From a virus, in IMG/VR virus record IMGVR_UViG_3300035670_001479, positions 1 to 20,322 of that record: a DNA stretch of 20,322 nt. One strand, 5' to 3'. Each line of letters opens with the position of its first letter. Within the stretch, counting starts at the first letter, position 1. Of the stretch, positions 6,547 through 17,093 are shown piece by piece. The notes under the pieces were generated by a model, which was not told where the DNA came from, made no database searches, and was given only the letters and a program-made list of their open reading frames with translations. Position numbers and translations under genes: made by a program.

Positions 6547-6819
6547 TTAGTCTTTCGGGTTCTTCTTGTGTGCGCCCTTGGTACGAGGGTAGCTGGTATT
6601 GGCCTTGGCTGAAGTTACACGCAAGTTACTTCTGCGGTTATCGGTAGCATCTCCGTTGCGATGGTCTACCTGCTTGCCATCTCCCTTCTTGACCTTACCT
6701 TCGGCCATCATCTTCCTGCGGGCGGCATTACGGGCAACCCGCTTCTTGATTTGCTCGGGCTGCTTCTTGTATTCGTTTTCTTTCTGGTAGTCCCGCTTGG
6801 AACCTTTACTGGATGGCAT
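6547..6819 (-). CDS. Small HNH-type protein
   Basis: This 90-residue, very basic protein has a compact HNH core: VDHRNGDATDNRRSNLRV at about residues 51-68, with D52-H53-x-N55, N61 and N65 matching the second half of the HNH_3 fold (D-H-x-N-G-x-x-x-D-N-R-x-x-N-L-R). The N-terminal half is Lys/Arg-rich and could contact DNA. There are no zinc cysteines. Stand-alone HNH proteins in phages are usually nicking or homing endonucleases, sometimes packaging cofactors. It is the first gene of the leftward block, beside the divergent non-coding region, with only a weak purine-rich ribosome site (AAAGAAG). Homing activity is inference. Confidence 0.75.
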   Translation of the reverse strand: MPSSKGSKRDYQKENEYKKQPEQIKKRVARNAARRKMMAEGKVKKGDGKQVDHRNGDATDNRRSNLRVTSAKANTSYPRTKGAHKKNPKD

Positions 6820-7032
6820 AATGCTTCTTTGTGTTTATATGGTTTAACTGTGTGTTTATTAGCGGCGGTATTCGCCGCAGATTTACGGTTATGTCAATGA
6901 CAGCTATACGAAATTAGCGGCATTTAAACCGGCAGTCCTGCTTTGGGTATCATCATTCCTGATTTGGGGCTTTATCTAGAAATACTGGTGTGTTTTTCTA
7001 GCACAATCCAAGCCTTATATGGCATGAAAGCC
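6820..7032. other. Non-coding spacer with short hairpins upstream of the HNH gene
   Basis: No credible gene is seen here. It holds a GC hairpin GCGGCG-GTATT-CGCCGC (6862-6878), an 11-base palindrome TGTCAATGACA (6892-6902), the 9-base repeat ATTAGCGGC near 6859 and 6915, and an inverted repeat CTAGAAA/TTTCTAG (6976-7001). None is followed by a T run in either direction, so they are not classical terminators. They may process or shield the 5' end of the late leftward transcript. Confidence 0.4.
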
Positions 7033-7112
7033 AGTAATCGCGCCACTTCCAGCCATATCGCGCCATATTAGGGTCAGGCACTTTCATCAATCTGGAACTA
7101 CCAAGGATTACT
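7033..7112 (-). ncRNA. Folding unit 1 of a tandem structured array
   Basis: This 80-base unit is closed by a perfect seven-base stem (AGTAATC 7033-7039 with GATTACT 7106-7112). Inside it a six-base stem (TTCCAG 7047-7052 with CTGGAA 7092-7097) encloses a small ATAT/ATAT hairpin (7055-7068). The closing stem abuts the first AATAGGTT linker exactly. The strand is assumed to be leftward because the neighbouring tRNAs are leftward. It has no tRNA T-loop or anticodon arm that I can recognise. Confidence 0.45.
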
Positions 7113-7120
7113 AATAGGTT

Positions 7121-7218
7121 CGCGGTTTTCTCGTGGTTTGCTGCTTGCAACAGTGTCCGGAATGCCAAGCAATGCTCACACGAAGGCACTTGACCCGCTA
7201 AGGTCTATGCGAGCCGCG
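7121..7218 (-). ncRNA. Folding unit 2 of a tandem structured array
   Basis: This 98-base unit is closed by a nine-pair stem with a four-T bulge: CGCGG (7121-7125) plus CTCG (7130-7133) pairs with CGAG (7210-7213) plus CCGCG (7214-7218). Internal hairpins are weaker (TTGC/GCAA near 7138-7149, GACC/GGTC at 7192-7205). It lies exactly between two AATAGGTT linkers. No protein or known RNA family is recognised. Confidence 0.5.
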
Positions 7219-7226
7219 AATAGGTT

Positions 7227-7322
7227 TGCCTGTCGGGTGGCAATGTCCCGAATGCCTGCCACATAACTACGGACAGGCTGTCCGTTGCAGCAGACTCCCG
7301 AAGGTCTGCCCAAAGTCAGGCA
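7227..7322 (-). ncRNA. Folding unit 3: cloverleaf with three perfect hairpins
   Basis: This is the clearest unit. The closing stem is TGCCTG (7227-7232) with CAGGCA (7317-7322). Inside are three consecutive perfect hairpins: GTGGCA/TGCCAC (7237-7262), ACGGACA/TGTCCGT (7269-7285) and GCAGAC/GTCTGC (7290-7309). The result is a four-way cloverleaf 96 bases long. It lacks the GTTCGA T-loop and conserved D-loop bases of a tRNA, so it is a tRNA-like shape rather than a tRNA gene. Confidence 0.6.
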
Positions 7323-7332
7323 AATAAGGTTT

Positions 7333-7438
7333 GCGACAGGCAGCGCCTAGAACACTGCCCCGTGCGGGTTGCCAAGGTTGTGGGCTTCTGCCACGACCTC
7401 CACAGGCTATGTGCCTGCGCGTGCACCCGCGGTGTCGC
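7333..7438 (-). ncRNA. Folding unit 4: multi-branched GC-rich unit
   Basis: This 106-base unit is closed by GCGACA (7333-7338) with TGTCGC (7433-7438). Inside are GGCAGCG/CACTGCC with a seven-base loop (7339-7359, one pair is a wobble only in the leftward RNA), AGGT.GTGG/CCAC.ACCT with a seven-base loop (7375-7399, one pair is a wobble only in the rightward RNA), CAGGC/GCCTG (7403-7417) and CGCG/CGCG (7418-7431). The two wobbles disagree about which strand is the RNA. Confidence 0.55.
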
Positions 7439-7447
7439 AATAGGTTT

Positions 7448-7532
7448 GGAAGTATTTACTTCCTTATACCCCCTTAGACCCGCTGGAAGATACTTTTGTT
7501 CCCCAAACCTGTAAAAATAATTATTACGGTTT
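7448..7532. other. Two perfect hairpins between the array and tRNA-Asn
   Basis: GGAAGT-ATTT-ACTTCC (7448-7463) starts on the base after the last linker. A second hairpin pairs AAACC (7505-7509) and GTAA (7511-7514) with TTAC (7524-7527) and GGTTT (7528-7532), leaving one bulged T. Neither has a terminator-type T run. Confidence 0.5.
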
Positions 7533-7551
7533 GTTAATGTTAATGGGAAGG

Positions 7552-7623
7552 CTGGCAAGGTAGGGGTCGAACCTACGACCGGGTGATTAACAGTCACCTG
7601 CTCTACCACTGAGCTACTTGCCA
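7552..7623 (-). tRNA. tRNA-Asn (anticodon GUU)
   Basis: All arms are present on the minus strand: acceptor TGGCAAG/CTTGCCA, D arm GCTC/GAGC, anticodon stem GGTGA/TCACC with loop CTGTTAA (anticodon GTT), and T stem GTAGG/CCTAC with loop TTCGACC. CCA is not encoded (GCCT follows the acceptor), so it would have to be added by the host enzyme. It lies four bases downstream of tRNA-Thr and would be processed from the same transcript. It probably supports AAC/AAT codons during late protein synthesis. Confidence 0.95.
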
Positions 7624-7627
7624 TTAT

Positions 7628-7703
7628 TGGTGCCGGAAGCAGGACTCGAACCCACCGCCTACTGATTACAAATCAGTTGCTCTACCAGATGAGCTATTCC
7701 GGC
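7628..7703 (-). tRNA. tRNA-Thr (anticodon UGU)
   Basis: A complete cloverleaf is present on the minus strand: acceptor GCCGGAA/TTCCGGC, D arm GCTC/GAGC, anticodon stem ACTGA/TCAGT with loop TTTGTAA (anticodon TGT), and T loop TTCGAGT on a stem with two wobble pairs. Discriminator A is followed by an encoded CCA, unlike its neighbour, so the two tRNAs may have different origins. It reads ACA codons. Confidence 0.96.
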
Positions 7704-7714
7704 AATATGCCTGT

Positions 7715-8122
7715 GGCTTCACAGGAAGCCCTGTGTTCAATTTTAAGGGTACTGGTAGTACCTAACCATACCTTTTGCCTAAAACGCCCTGTAGGGGCTT
7801 ACAGACGGTTCTCCTTGGTTTGTATTAAACCGGCCAGCAAAAGCAGGATACTGGCCGGTTACAGTATAGTCTAGTTGTTTATGTATATTACATAGATATA
7901 TATAATCTATATATCTAATTATATATTAAATATATACATAAGGCAAGCAGGGATGCTTGCCCATGATGTTCGGCTGCATGGAAGCAGCCATCACAGTATG
8001 TATATTATTACTGCTGGCCCCCAAAGGCCAGCCATAGTATACTACTTGAAACTACCAACCTAGACGGTTGGCAGTTCCTTCCCTTCAGGCAGTCGGGTAT
8101 CCATACCCTCCAGTGATTGCCT
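7715..8122. other. Dense run of compact hairpins, no gene
   Basis: No ORF is credible here. Perfect or near-perfect stems follow one another: GGCTTC/GAAGCC (7715-7730), GGTACT/AGTACC (7748-7762), CTGTA/TACAG (7789-7804), AACCGGCCAG/CTGGCCGGTT (7828-7860), GGCAAGCA/TGCTTGCC with a GGGA loop (7942-7961), GGCTGC/GCAGCC (7972-7989), GCTGGCC/GGCCAGC (8013-8032) and AACT.CCAACC/GGTTGG.AGTT (8050-8076). A two-part stem at 8087-8122 pairs AGGCAGTC GGGTA with TACCC and GATTGCCT. This may be one long structured RNA or DNA hairpins. No T run marks any as a terminator. Confidence 0.55.
7863..7941. other. AT-rich palindromic zone (possible DNA unwinding element)
   Basis: An outer inverted repeat TTATGTATAT (7879-7888) / ATATACATAA (7932-7941) surrounds a perfect nine-pair hairpin AGATATATA/TATATATCT (7894-7916). 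From 7879 to 7941 only three bases are not A or T. Such easily melted zones accompany replication origins, and this one lies about 700 bases from four DnaA boxes. It could equally be a nuclease-sensitive hairpin in RNA. Confidence 0.5.
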
Positions 8123-8225
8123 TCAGCTTCACTTCCTTTCGCTCAGGCTTCCTACCTTCGCTAATCACATAATGCTCCCTTTGACCACAATATTCCCCAA
8201 AAGTTCCCCTGTCAGTATCAACAAT

Positions 8226-8257
8226 CCGACGAACGGTCGATATTTCCGATAAACGGT
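8226..8257 (+). repeat. Two iteron-like direct repeats
   Basis: CCGACGAACGGT (8226-8237) and CCGATAAACGGT (8246-8257) match at 10 of 12 bases and start exactly 20 bases apart, about two helical turns. They lie between the hairpin region and the parS-like and DnaA sites. Two-site spacing of this sort suits a dimeric DNA-binding protein, but no initiator gene is in the window. Confidence 0.4.
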
Positions 8258-8364
8258 AGGTAAGGCTGAATACGGGATTTTATTTTAGATATATTTTGGT
8301 TGTGGTATAGAAGAGCAGCCTACCCCCCATACCCCCCTGCCCTAGGGGTGGCCAGCACCTTCAC

Positions 8365-8393
8365 TTGAGAATGATTCTCATTCGCATTATATA
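8365..8393 (+). promoter_or_regulatory. Rightward promoter overlapped by a Fur-box-like palindrome
   Basis: TTGAGA (8365-8370) and TATATA (8388-8393) are 17 bases apart, a sigma-70 arrangement. The palindrome GAGAAT-G-ATTCTC (8367-8379), extended as TGAGAATGATTCTCATT (8366-8382), covers the -35 box and spacer. It agrees with 14 of 19 positions of the Fur consensus. No gene starts for 500 bases downstream, so any transcript would have a long leader or be non-coding. Confidence 0.45.
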
Positions 8394-8523
8394 CCCACAC
8401 TTTCCGCATGGTTCGCATAATAGGGAGTTATGTTAAATGCTGATTACACTTGACCATCACATCAGGTAGTCAAGCAAGGTTGTCGTCCTCGTATACTGTA
8501 GTATACCGATGCACTGGAGTATA

Positions 8524-8539
8524 TGTTCCACGTGAAACA
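8524..8539. promoter_or_regulatory. parS-like site (ParB binding, bacterial chromosome type)
   Basis: TGTTCCACGTGAAACA differs at one position from the widespread chromosomal parS palindrome TGTTTCACGTGAAACA, and the C variant is itself used in natural parS sites of some bacteria. ParB binds such sites and spreads along DNA for segregation. No ParA or ParB gene is visible here, so the host proteins would be the partners. Only one copy is seen in the window. Confidence 0.75.
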
Positions 8540-8636
8540 ATGCCGTGAGGCTTATAACCCAATCATCACCCCCACCAATTCCCGGGTGTTCCTGTCTGGT
8601 ATTAACTTACCCCAATGTAACTTATGTATCAATTAG

Positions 8637-8690
8637 TTATCCACAAGTTATACACAATCATTCCTTGCCTGTGGATAAGTCTGTGGATAA
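8637..8690. promoter_or_regulatory. Cluster of four DnaA boxes (possible replication origin)
   Basis: TTATCCACA (8637-8645) and TTATACACA (8648-8656) point one way; TGTGGATAA (8670-8678) and TGTGGATAA (8682-8690) point the other. All four match TTATNCACA perfectly. Same-direction boxes start 11-12 bases apart, close to a helical turn, and the pairs face each other. The cluster is about 140 bases upstream of the early promoter. It could be an origin or a sink or switch for host DnaA. Confidence 0.8.
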
Positions 8691-8827
8691 GTCAGCGTAT
8701 GCCCTTTTTTGGGGTTGAGCCCATACCTTGGCATGGGTTGCTTGTGCGCGTTCCTGTGCGTCTGGTGTGTTGTGTCTTTTGGTTATAACAATACCTTTCC
8801 TTATGTATTCTTATTCTAATAAAGTGC
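8691..8827. other. Non-coding stretch between DnaA boxes and the early promoter
   Basis: It contains a hairpin CCCAT.CC/GG.ATGGG (about 8719-8736) preceded by a run of six T in the plus strand, followed by a G/T-rich then AT-rich stretch. No gene is supported. Confidence 0.35.
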
Positions 8828-8855
8828 TTGCATCCTGTGACAGGTGCGCTATAGT
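8828..8855 (+). promoter_or_regulatory. Rightward early promoter with a palindrome in its spacer
   Basis: TTGCAT (8828-8833) and TATAGT (8850-8855) are 16 bases apart and lie 33 bases before the first gene of the rightward block. The spacer holds a perfect 11-base palindrome CCTGT-G-ACAGG (8834-8844), placed where a bound repressor would block RNA polymerase. Host sigma-70 polymerase is the likely user. Confidence 0.65.
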
Positions 8856-14582: not shown

Positions 14583-14747
14583 ATGTTCTGGGGTTCAGTA
14601 AAGCTGCACGACGGCAACCGCATAGAGTGGGTGCCAAACTACCTGCTGGAGATGACCCCGGAGCAGCAGTTCAAGAGCAATCTTGACGCCGGACACTTCG
14701 ATGGTTACGAGTTAGTGGGGCGTTATAAGAGGCCGCAGGAGGCATAA
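14583..14747 (+). CDS. 54-residue hypothetical protein before the polymerase
   Basis: The start is the ATG with AAGGAGAG six bases upstream; the longer open frame runs through the attC-like element and is not protein-like there. The product MFWGSVKLHDGNRIEWVPNY followed by LLEMTPEQQFKSNLDAGHFDGYELVGRYKRPQ looks like a small folded alpha/beta protein. Its stop overlaps the polymerase start (TAATG), so translation of the two is coupled. Function is not known. Confidence 0.7.
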   Translation: MFWGSVKLHDGNRIEWVPNYLLEMTPEQQFKSNLDAGHFDGYELVGRYKRPQEA

Positions 14748-15940
14748 TGAAGTACATTGTGTTTGATACCGAAACCACTATCCGCAATCGTGGTGACGAG
14801 GCAGTAGGAGACAACCAAGGCAGCCCTTACCACCACGCCAACCGTGCTTGGTTATTCGGCTGGAAGTCTGACCAATGCAAGCGTGTTAATGTTGTCCGCC
14901 ATAAAGACGGCTTTGACAAGGCATGGTTTCGTGATGCAAGCTGGTTAGTAGGGCAGAACATACGCTTCGACTTGGCTTACCTGCGTAAGCACTACCCCAT
15001 TGAGTACGAGCTGTGGCTGCAAGGTGGAGGCAGGATTTGGGATACGCAGACAGTTGAATACCTGATTACAAGCCAGCAGACCAAGATGGTTAGCTTGGAT
15101 AAGCTGGCAGAGAAGTACGGTGGCACACTGAAGGACGACCGTGTTAAGGAATACTGGCAGGCAGGTATTGATACACCTGATATTCCTGATGAAGTGCTTG
15201 TACCGTATCTTGAGCAGGATGTTCTGAATACTGAAAAGGTATTCCTTGCCCAAGCCAAGCAGGTGCGCGAGTTAGGTATGACAAAGCTGGTACTTAGCCA
15301 GATGGATGCAATGCTTGCCACAGCAGAGATGCAGTGGAACGGGATGCGCTTTGACAAGGAGAAGGCACTGGCAGAAGCAAGTATCCTACGGGATACAGCG
15401 GCAGGCTTACGCGCAAAGCTGACAGAAGCTATGACCGTATATCACCCACACATCCAAGACCCAAACCCCATGAGCAACGAGCAGATTAGCCTAGTGCTGT
15501 TTGGGGGTGTAGTGTTCATTGATGAGCAGCTACCAGTGCTGGAGAATGGTGAGCCAGTACGGTACAAGTCCGGGGCAAGGAAGGATGAGATTAAGACCAA
15601 AAAGCAGGCAGTGCCTTATGGTGCAGCAGGATTTGGTATCAAGACCAAGGAAGAAAACGCTACCACCAAGAAAGGTATTTATCAGGTAGGCGACAACATC
15701 CTGAACGACATTATCAAGGCCCACAAGGGCAAGCCTGTAGCAGAGTTCTGTATGGATGTGCTACAGCTACGGGCAATCGAGAAGGACTTGACTACCTACT
15801 TCATTGGCCTGTCTGACCTTACTTGGCATGATGGTTACATTCGTGGTGAACATAATCATTGTGTGACTGTCACAGGTAGGTTGAGTAGCAGCAAGCCCAA
15901 CATGATGAACATATCAAACAAGGTTAGAGAAAATGCCTAG
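14747..15940 (+). CDS. DNA polymerase, N-terminal part: 3'-5' exonuclease and thumb
   Basis: The 397-residue half of a family A polymerase has the full proofreading domain: Exo I VFDTETT (D7, E9), Exo II GQNIRFDLAYL (N71, D75) and Exo III YLEQDVLNT (Y154, D158). The thumb-type region follows, up to TGRLSSSKPNMMNI (about residues 376-389), the template-contacting motif. It then stops after SNKVRENA, before motif A. An intact enzyme would continue into the catalytic palm, which lies about 280 bases downstream as a separate gene. The stop overlaps the start of the helix-turn-helix ORF (ATGCCTAG). Two-piece polymerases are known in other phages and can reassemble as two polypeptides. Confidence 0.93.
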   Translation: MKYIVFDTETTIRNRGDEAVGDNQGSPYHHANRAWLFGWKSDQCKRVNVVRHKDGFDKAWFRDASWLVGQNIRFDLAYLRKHYPIEYELWLQGGGRIWDTQTVEYLITSQQTKMVSLDKLAEKYGGTLKDDRVKEYWQAGIDTPDIPDEVLVPYLEQDVLNTEKVFLAQAKQVRELGMTKLVLSQMDAMLATAEMQWNGMRFDKEKALAEASILRDTAAGLRAKLTEAMTVYHPHIQDPNPMSNEQISLVLFGGVVFIDEQLPVLENGEPVRYKSGARKDEIKTKKQAVPYGAAGFGIKTKEENATTKKGIYQVGDNILNDIIKAHKGKPVAEFCMDVLQLRAIEKDLTTYFIGLSDLTWHDGYIRGEHNHCVTVTGRLSSSKPNMMNISNKVRENA

Positions 15941-16148
15941 AAAAGTAATAGTAGACTACCATACAATACAAGACTTGTATGAGAACACATCATTGACGCA
16001 GGCAGACATAGCAAAGAAAGTTGGCTGTAGGGCTAGTGTTGTCTCTAACTGGGCATCAAAAAGATACTCTTCATCAGCAAGGAAGGCTAGAAAAGTGGAG
16101 GTGGTTTGTCTTGCTGTCCGACTACAAGAAACTTGTACGACAGTATGA
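15933..16148 (+). CDS. Helix-turn-helix protein inside the split polymerase
   Basis: The 71-residue ORF starts inside the stop region of the first polymerase part. Residues 10-45 form a clear helix-turn-helix: IQDLYENTSLTQADIAKKVG, then CRASVVSNWASKRY as the recognition helix. After ARKARKVEVV the residues stop looking protein-like, and a protein-like continuation is open in the +1 frame (see the next entry). The true product may therefore be longer in an intact form. DNA-binding domains of this type are found in the specificity parts of homing endonucleases and in small repressors; no nuclease motif is present. Confidence 0.65.
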   Translation: MPRKVIVDYHTIQDLYENTSLTQADIAKKVGCRASVVSNWASKRYSSSARKARKVEVVCLAVRLQETCTTV

Positions 16149-16221
16149 GGAATTATGTAGTGAATACGACTTGTTACACATGGAAGCAGAAGAACTCCGT
16201 ACAGAGTGTAAGGAGCATTGA
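16021..16221 (+). CDS. Second ORF of the polymerase insert, coiled-coil-like end
   Basis: In the +1 frame relative to the helix-turn-helix ORF, residues LSDYKKLVRQYEELCSEYDL and LHMEAEELRTECKEH form an amphipathic helix. It ends in TGATG, where the stop overlaps the start of the second polymerase part, so ribosomes must probably arrive there. The true start is unclear (TTG at 16021 or an internal start). It is either a separate small gene or the displaced C terminus of the helix-turn-helix protein after a frameshift. Confidence 0.4.
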   Translation: MAVGLVLSLTGHQKDTLHQQGRLEKWRWFVLLSDYKKLVRQYEELCSEYDLLHMEAEELRTECKEH

Positions 16222-17093
16222 TGAACATTAAGGAATGTTTCACAAGCCGCTTTGAAGGGGGATACCTGATTGAAGCCGACTTCAGCCAGCTAGAAGTCGT
16301 TGGCCTTGCGATCCTTACGGGCGACAAGCAGCTAATGGAGGACATCAGGGAAGGTAGGGACATGCACTGCATCAGTGCCAGCTTCCTTAGCGGGGAGAAG
16401 TATGAGGACATCTACACCAAGTACAAAGCAGGTGATGCAAAATATGCAACACTTCGCAAGAGTGCCAAGCAGCCTAGCTTCCAGCTTCAGTATGGTAGTG
16501 GTGCAAAGAGTATGTCTGACTCATGCAAGCTGCCCCTAAAGACCTGTCAGGAGTTTATAGACAACTACTACACCCGCTACAGTGGGGTTAAGCAGTGGCA
16601 GGAGGATATTGCCAATACCGTAGAGAACGGGCGCAAGCCTTCCGGTAGGCATACTAAAGGTGGCTTTCCTGCTGGCGAAAGCACGATTGTAACGGCAACA
16701 GGGCGTAGGTATACCTTCATGGAATACGATGCCCCCATGTTCATGCACCGTAAAGGGACTATGACCAGCTTCAGCCCTACGGAAATCAAGAATTATCCCG
16801 TACAGGGCTTCGCTACAGGGGACATAGTACCCCACATGCTGGGGGTAATCTATCGTGAGTTACTTGGTAGCCGCATCCACAAGGACTGCCTGATGGTCAA
16901 TACCATCCACGATAGCGTCCTGTTTGATTGTAAGGCAGAAGTACTTGCCGAAGCCTGTAAAATGATTTACACTATTATGTGTAACACCAGCGAGACTATT
17001 GCAGAGTTCTTTAATATCAATATACCCCTGCCTTTGAAGTGTAGTATTGAGGTTGGGTATACTTGGTATGAAATGGACAAGTATGTTATATAA
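16221..17093 (+). CDS. DNA polymerase, C-terminal part: catalytic palm and fingers
   Basis: The 290-residue half carries the polymerase active site of family A. Motif A is EADFSQLE (catalytic D20). Motif B on the O helix is RKSAKQPSFQLQYGSG with R79, K83, F87 and Y91 at the spacing of R754, K758, F762 and Y766 in E. coli Pol I. NYPVQGFATGD (191-201) is the Q-helix region, and motif C is NTIHDSVLFD (H230, D231), with Ser where most relatives have Glu. The start ATG has AAGGAG five bases upstream and overlaps the preceding stop. It must pair with the N-terminal part to give a working enzyme. The C terminus (DKYVI) is followed at once by the second cassette-like unit. Confidence 0.93.
   Translation: MNIKECFTSRFEGGYLIEADFSQLEVVGLAILTGDKQLMEDIREGRDMHCISASFLSGEKYEDIYTKYKAGDAKYATLRKSAKQPSFQLQYGSGAKSMSDSCKLPLKTCQEFIDNYYTRYSGVKQWQEDIANTVENGRKPSGRHTKGGFPAGESTIVTATGRRYTFMEYDAPMFMHRKGTMTSFSPTEIKNYPVQGFATGDIVPHMLGVIYRELLGSRIHKDCLMVNTIHDSVLFDCKAEVLAEACKMIYTIMCNTSETIAEFFNINIPLPLKCSIEVGYTWYEMDKYVI

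Follow-up and report, generated by a model that had tools for sequence, protein, structure and literature searches.

What kind of element is formed by four structured segments that stand one behind the other, separated by near-identical AATAGGTT-type linkers, in the non-coding DNA of a virus and close to two of its tRNA genes? The window analysed here, the whole stretch of 20,322 bases, is an IMG/VR virus record, and a preliminary description made from its letters had placed four units of 80, 98, 96 and 106 nt at 7033-7438, with coordinates and linker sequences that we find to be correct (Table 1). The analysis supports a series of structured segments, each closed at its ends, that is real, non-random and specific to the tRNA strand. 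A candidate new phage small-RNA array is the best remaining reading of this series and is unproven; it is weighed below against one large RNA, an mRNA leader, a DNA-level element and chance.

Genomic setting

Both the homology of portal and terminase and the gene order identify the record as an uncultured Zobellviridae-like podovirus, the portal being 43-49% and the terminase 43-47% identical to those of Zobellviridae (best relatives e.g. ICBM2, SIO1, PA11 and ICP2). The late genes of the window, which include portal, large terminase, tail and HNH genes, are on the - strand, and the genes for primase, helicase, DNA polymerase and exonuclease are on the + strand; the two divergent blocks are separated by some 2 kb of non-coding DNA (6820-8844). 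The DNA polymerase is split into ORFs 14747-15940 and 16218-17093, with a 71-aa ORF (15933-16148) between them that is possibly a small insertion; the polymerase is also split in ICBM2 and interrupted in ICP2.

A divergent late/early junction is common to the window and the relatives examined (ICBM2, CW02, GX1 and ICP2), and in all of these relatives it is without coding sequence. CW02, GX1 and ICP2 have 1-1.8 kb of non-coding DNA at the equivalent junction, and in ICBM2 the corresponding divergent point consists of the two genome ends, with 159-bp terminal repeats, where the late genes end and the early genes begin. Because of this synteny with ICBM2, we infer that the window seems to have been assembled, at 6820-8844, across joined genome ends.

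Within the junction, the array follows the genes for tRNA-Thr and tRNA-Asn and belongs to the 5' leader of the structural operon. That two real tRNAs accompany it in the same orientation had been noted before and is borne out by ARAGORN and Rfam, which place both on the - strand, about 100 nt upstream of the array. Inside the array, ARAGORN and the Rfam tRNA model (RF00005) find nothing at E values up to 10, only the two flanking tRNAs being detected, and the earlier idea of diverged tRNAs or a tRNA-like tail is not upheld. No Rfam family, GOLLD and ROOL included, matches the array at E up to 10, in agreement with the first impression that it fits no known family, and the small ORFs that overlap it match no domain family. 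The best sigma-70-like promoter of a consensus scan (Table 1), a weak match, could drive the tRNAs, the array and the downstream structural genes.

Table 1. Features on the - strand in and around the array, listed in descending coordinates (MFE, minimum free energy; z, MFE relative to shuffled sequences; stem P, chance of such a closing stem in dinucleotide shuffles)
Feature	Position	Strand	Evidence and remarks
Best sigma-70-like promoter, TTGCCT-17-TATAAT	7918-7946	-	Consensus scan, 10/12; 6 sites vs 4.8 expected in shuffles (weak)
tRNA-Thr (TGT), 3' CCA encoded	7628-7703	-	ARAGORN; Rfam RF00005, 66.7 bits
tRNA-Asn (GTT)	7550-7623	-	ARAGORN; Rfam RF00005, 70.5 bits; upstream of array
Leader hairpin u0	7448-7515	-	Upstream of linker 1; isolated fold -18.9 kcal/mol; z -1.9
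Linker 1	7439-7447	-	Sequence; AAACCUAUU on transcript, AATAGGTTT on + strand
Unit u1, 106 nt	7333-7438	-	6-bp stem GCGACA/UGUCGC; multi-branched MFE -55.3 kcal/mol; z -3.26; stem P 0.0032
Linker 2	7323-7332	-	Sequence; AAACCUUAUU on transcript, AATAAGGTTT on + strand
Unit u2, 96 nt	7227-7322	-	6-bp stem UGCCUG/CAGGCA; rod-like MFE -44.1 kcal/mol; z -3.62; stem P 0.0019
Linker 3	7219-7226	-	Sequence; AACCUAUU on transcript, AATAGGTT on + strand
Unit u3, 98 nt	7121-7218	-	5-bp stem CGCGG/CCGCG; z -0.69; stem P 0.0075
Linker 4	7113-7120	-	Sequence; AACCUAUU on transcript, AATAGGTT on + strand
Unit u4, 80 nt, last, without linker after it	7033-7112	-	7-bp stem AGUAAUC/GAUUACU; z -2.76; stem P 0.0003
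Small HNH protein gene	6547-6819	-	Pfam HNH_3; first protein gene downstream of array

Units, linkers and closing stems

Each of the four units has a perfect terminal stem, as had been claimed, although the length then given, 6-9 pairs, was overstated: on the tRNA strand the stems of u1-u4 have 6, 6, 5 and 7 pairs, the sixth closing pair of u3 existing on the + strand only, as G-T. The four stems are unlike in sequence, yet every one pairs. Similarity between the sequences of the units is not significant (best P 0.08), and their predicted interiors differ, with no common internal architecture. A consensus fold of u2 and u3 comprises 12 pairs only, 2 of them compensatory, too few to be informative. 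The units have only the linker and a self-closing end-stem in common; the earlier view that architecture and linker persist while the stems differ holds for linker and closing stem, and not for the interiors. Nor is u2 predicted to form the cloverleaf with which it had been credited, this fold reaching -31.7 against -44.1 kcal/mol for the rod-like MFE structure, 12 kcal/mol worse.

The probability of the closing stem was obtained for each unit from dinucleotide shuffles, and the joint probability of the stems is about 1e-11, the linker boundaries being taken as given. Chains of end-stems are not unusual by chance if no linker is demanded, and are not counted as evidence here; the proper test therefore combines linker and stem. 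Such a combination is sought by a motif-blind detector, which requires an 8-mer repeated at 60-120 nt (with one mismatch or one insertion) and, from each copy to the next, a closing stem of 5 bp or more. The detector re-finds the array (7121-7218, 7227-7322 and 7331-7438, with the linker AATAGGTT). Shuffled sequence in which linkers and stems also coincide had been raised as an objection, and none of 500 shuffles of the 20 kb window reproduces the array or gives any match. In about 1.03 Mb of other fetched sequence, matches are confined to contigs that had been fetched for protein-coding tandem repeats, and no further non-coding case was recognised in this ~1 Mb. The linker-plus-stem arrangement is far beyond chance.

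Strand-specific folding

Compared with shuffled sequences, the MFE z scores of u1-u4 are -3.3, -3.6, -0.7 and -2.8 on the - strand and -1.3, -1.9, -0.5 and -0.4 on the + strand, and the entire array scores -2.9 on the tRNA (-) strand vs -0.2 on the + strand, rising in strength to -3.55 when the leader is added. The real tRNAs that flank the array have z scores of -2.3 to -2.4, a size that u1, u2 and u4 attain or surpass. The folding of units against shuffled controls, proposed at the outset as a check, favours these three on the - strand, and fails for u3, the interior of which folds no better than shuffled. Since the - strand beats its shuffles while the + strand does not, the predicted folding points to RNA on the tRNA strand and not to a DNA palindrome. 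When the leader is folded as a whole, the closing stems of u1, u2 and u3 have pairing probabilities of about 0.9-0.99 (inner pairs) and that of u4 has a probability of only about 0.26; partial pairing is predicted for linkers 1 and 2 in the long transcript.

Two other elements were observed in the same junction. About seven near-perfect hairpins are found in AT-rich DNA at 7800-8165, where both strands are extreme (z -6.7 and -7.4); this block may be a different element, possibly acting at the DNA level. It is situated between the tRNAs and an oriC/parS-like block, which also belongs to the podoviral non-coding junction and combines, within 170 bp, a perfect parS-type palindrome, TGTTCCACGTGAAACA (8524-8539; 0.08 expected when up to 2 mismatches are allowed), with four DnaA boxes (8637-8690), of which three are TTATCCACA and one is TTATACACA. 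Neither the parS site nor a comparable cluster of DnaA boxes is present in CW02, GX1, K4, ICP2, ICBM2, the distant relative L008 or the contig L011. The block might recruit host DnaA or ParB.

Search for relatives

No second array was found by scans of IMG/VR, by BLAST of phage and plasmid records or by a scan of genome contigs with the terminase; the array itself, compared by BLASTN with phages and plasmids, gave chance matches only, and the terminase had no match among the genome contigs. Three pattern searches yielded candidates that were rejected. The triple-linker pattern is met in 32 IMG/VR contigs, where we interpret the matches as protein repeats in tandem, with spacings that are, almost without exception, multiples of 3; the conserved-loop pattern GACCTT..GGCATTCNGGACAYTG has one match, within a 650-aa reading frame; and the tandem of tRNA-Thr and a second tRNA occurs in 14 contigs, in none of which linkers or an array follow the tRNAs.

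Relatives of the virus were also sought by terminase, helicase, primase, tail protein and DNA polymerase, which led only to two fragments (L002 and L003, 84%), both of which stop short of the junction and the array, and to distant relatives. L008 (58% identical) has tRNAs at the corresponding place and no array. In this contig, the tRNAs (ARAGORN: Asn, Gly and Gly) directly precede a Lys/Arg-rich ORF of 133 aa (1409-2291 for the whole segment), which resembles the small HNH protein of the window by eye and seems to be without clear HNH residues. The divergent junctions of CW02, GX1, ICP2, ICBM2 and L008 contain no equivalent chain and have weaker structure. The array is a single orphan instance, and the claim made for it rests on this one case.

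Proposed mechanism and alternatives

The reading that we prefer, with a confidence somewhat short of even, is that the array encodes four structured small RNAs, which are co-transcribed with the tRNAs, cut in the linkers and act as decoys or sponges. A single transcript would start at a promoter upstream of the tRNAs, take in tRNA-Thr, tRNA-Asn, the leader hairpin and all four units, and run on towards the HNH and tail genes. Every unit would fold independently, closed by its own end-stem, and the A/U-containing AAACCUAUU linkers would be the points at which a ribonuclease cuts, releasing stable RNAs of about 80-106 nt. During infection, these products could then sequester a host protein, either one that binds RNA or a ribonuclease, in the manner of decoys or sponges; this role is preferred as the most economical one where a number of unlike structured RNAs are set free together with tRNAs. 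The reading is favoured by the periodicity of linkers and stems, by four end-stems that are unlike in sequence and all pair, by the folding of the - strand, with u1, u2 and u4 at or beyond the z scores of the tRNAs, by the probable closing stems of u1-u3, by the overlapping small ORFs, which match no domain family, and by the tRNAs at the same place in L008; against it stand the fold of u3, the low probability of the u4 stem, the partly paired linkers 1 and 2, the weak promoter, the single instance and an inexact match to RNase E sites. The consensus of this enzyme is RN|WUU, to which the linkers, read by eye, do not correspond exactly.

Alternatively, the locus could produce one large, unprocessed RNA of about 410-480 nt, with four domains joined by a repeated junction motif and working as a whole, which we regard as unlikely. 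Its size and its tRNA-linked phage setting would recall GOLLD and ROOL (PMC12286853), to neither of which Rfam finds a match, and the strengthening of z once the leader is included would fit a single folded molecule. The leader is also complementary to linker 1: the 5' arm of u0, AGGTTTGG, is able to pair with CCAAACCT, which spans the linker; however, this pairing is not favoured when the whole transcript is folded, and a repeated linker between self-closed units favours modularity over long-range folding. Distinctly unlikely, in our estimation, is a late-operon 5' leader with self-contained structured domains that protect or insulate the mRNA of the structural genes or else modulate transcriptional read-through, with no separate RNAs released. 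The array does lie directly upstream of the HNH, tail and packaging genes, with which it shares a strand, has a promoter-like site upstream and occupies a junction that is non-coding in all relatives examined, yet these relatives lack such a leader at the equivalent place, the array yielded no terminator signal, and the role needs no repeated identical linkers.

The position at which relatives such as ICBM2 have their genome ends, the late genes ending and the early genes starting at the termini, also brings to mind a DNA-level element for replication, concatemer resolution or packaging, and the DnaA boxes, the parS-like site and the two-strand hairpin block are all close by. This is highly improbable in view of the strand asymmetry of the array, unlike the block at 7800-8165, and, the linker excepted, there is no common DNA sequence for a protein to bind, because the stems differ between units. 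Least probable of all is a chance coincidence or a decayed, functionless remnant, for which one may cite the single orphan case, the energetically unremarkable u3 and the ease with which end-stem chains alone arise, but which must be set against the failure of the 500 shuffles to satisfy the linker-plus-stem detector and the lack of any other recognised non-coding case in about 1 Mb.

If the units are released separately, as in the small-RNA reading, a small lytic phage would have a compact and modular means of delivering several non-coding RNAs alongside its tRNAs, and the linkers would provide a short rule for seeking such arrays in other phage genomes. A bolder version, which we consider very unlikely, would make the array the representative of a novel kind of RNA locus in phages, a ‘CRISPR turned inside out’, in which structured RNAs unlike one another lie between standard cut-site linkers and are released with tRNAs to neutralise host defences that bind or cleave RNA.

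Comparison with known systems

Integron attC sites resemble the array in being imperfect inverted-repeat units of 60-140 nt. They differ in that the array folds asymmetrically between the strands, and neither an integrase nor a cassette is seen; of the attC boundary motif RYYYAAC / GTTRRRY, RYYYAAC is absent from both strands of 7033-7447. Type III toxin-antitoxin (ToxI-like) RNA arrays consist of short, nearly identical repeats that are cut by a ribonuclease at fixed junctions, and the array is likewise a tandem of structured units separated at fixed junctions, whereas its units are long and dissimilar. PADLOC and Pfam searches revealed no toxin gene among the flanking ORFs scanned, the small HNH protein being the only one among ten neighbouring ORFs to match a defence/toxin model. 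Phage tRNA clusters may carry extra stable RNAs, e.g. species 1 and 2 of T4, which are also non-tRNA structured RNAs beside tRNAs and on one strand. The array differs from them in having no tRNA homology, sequence similarity was not found, and we know of no common linker in RNAs of this type.

Closest in setting are GOLLD and ROOL, large ornate structured RNAs of phages and prophages near tRNA islands, the function of which is unknown (PMC12286853). Like them, the array is phage-encoded, structured and located beside tRNAs; the array itself matches neither the GOLLD nor the ROOL model. GOLLD and ROOL are conserved in sequence, each acting as one long molecule, whereas the array is composed of four self-closed units of 80-106 nt and a repeated short linker.
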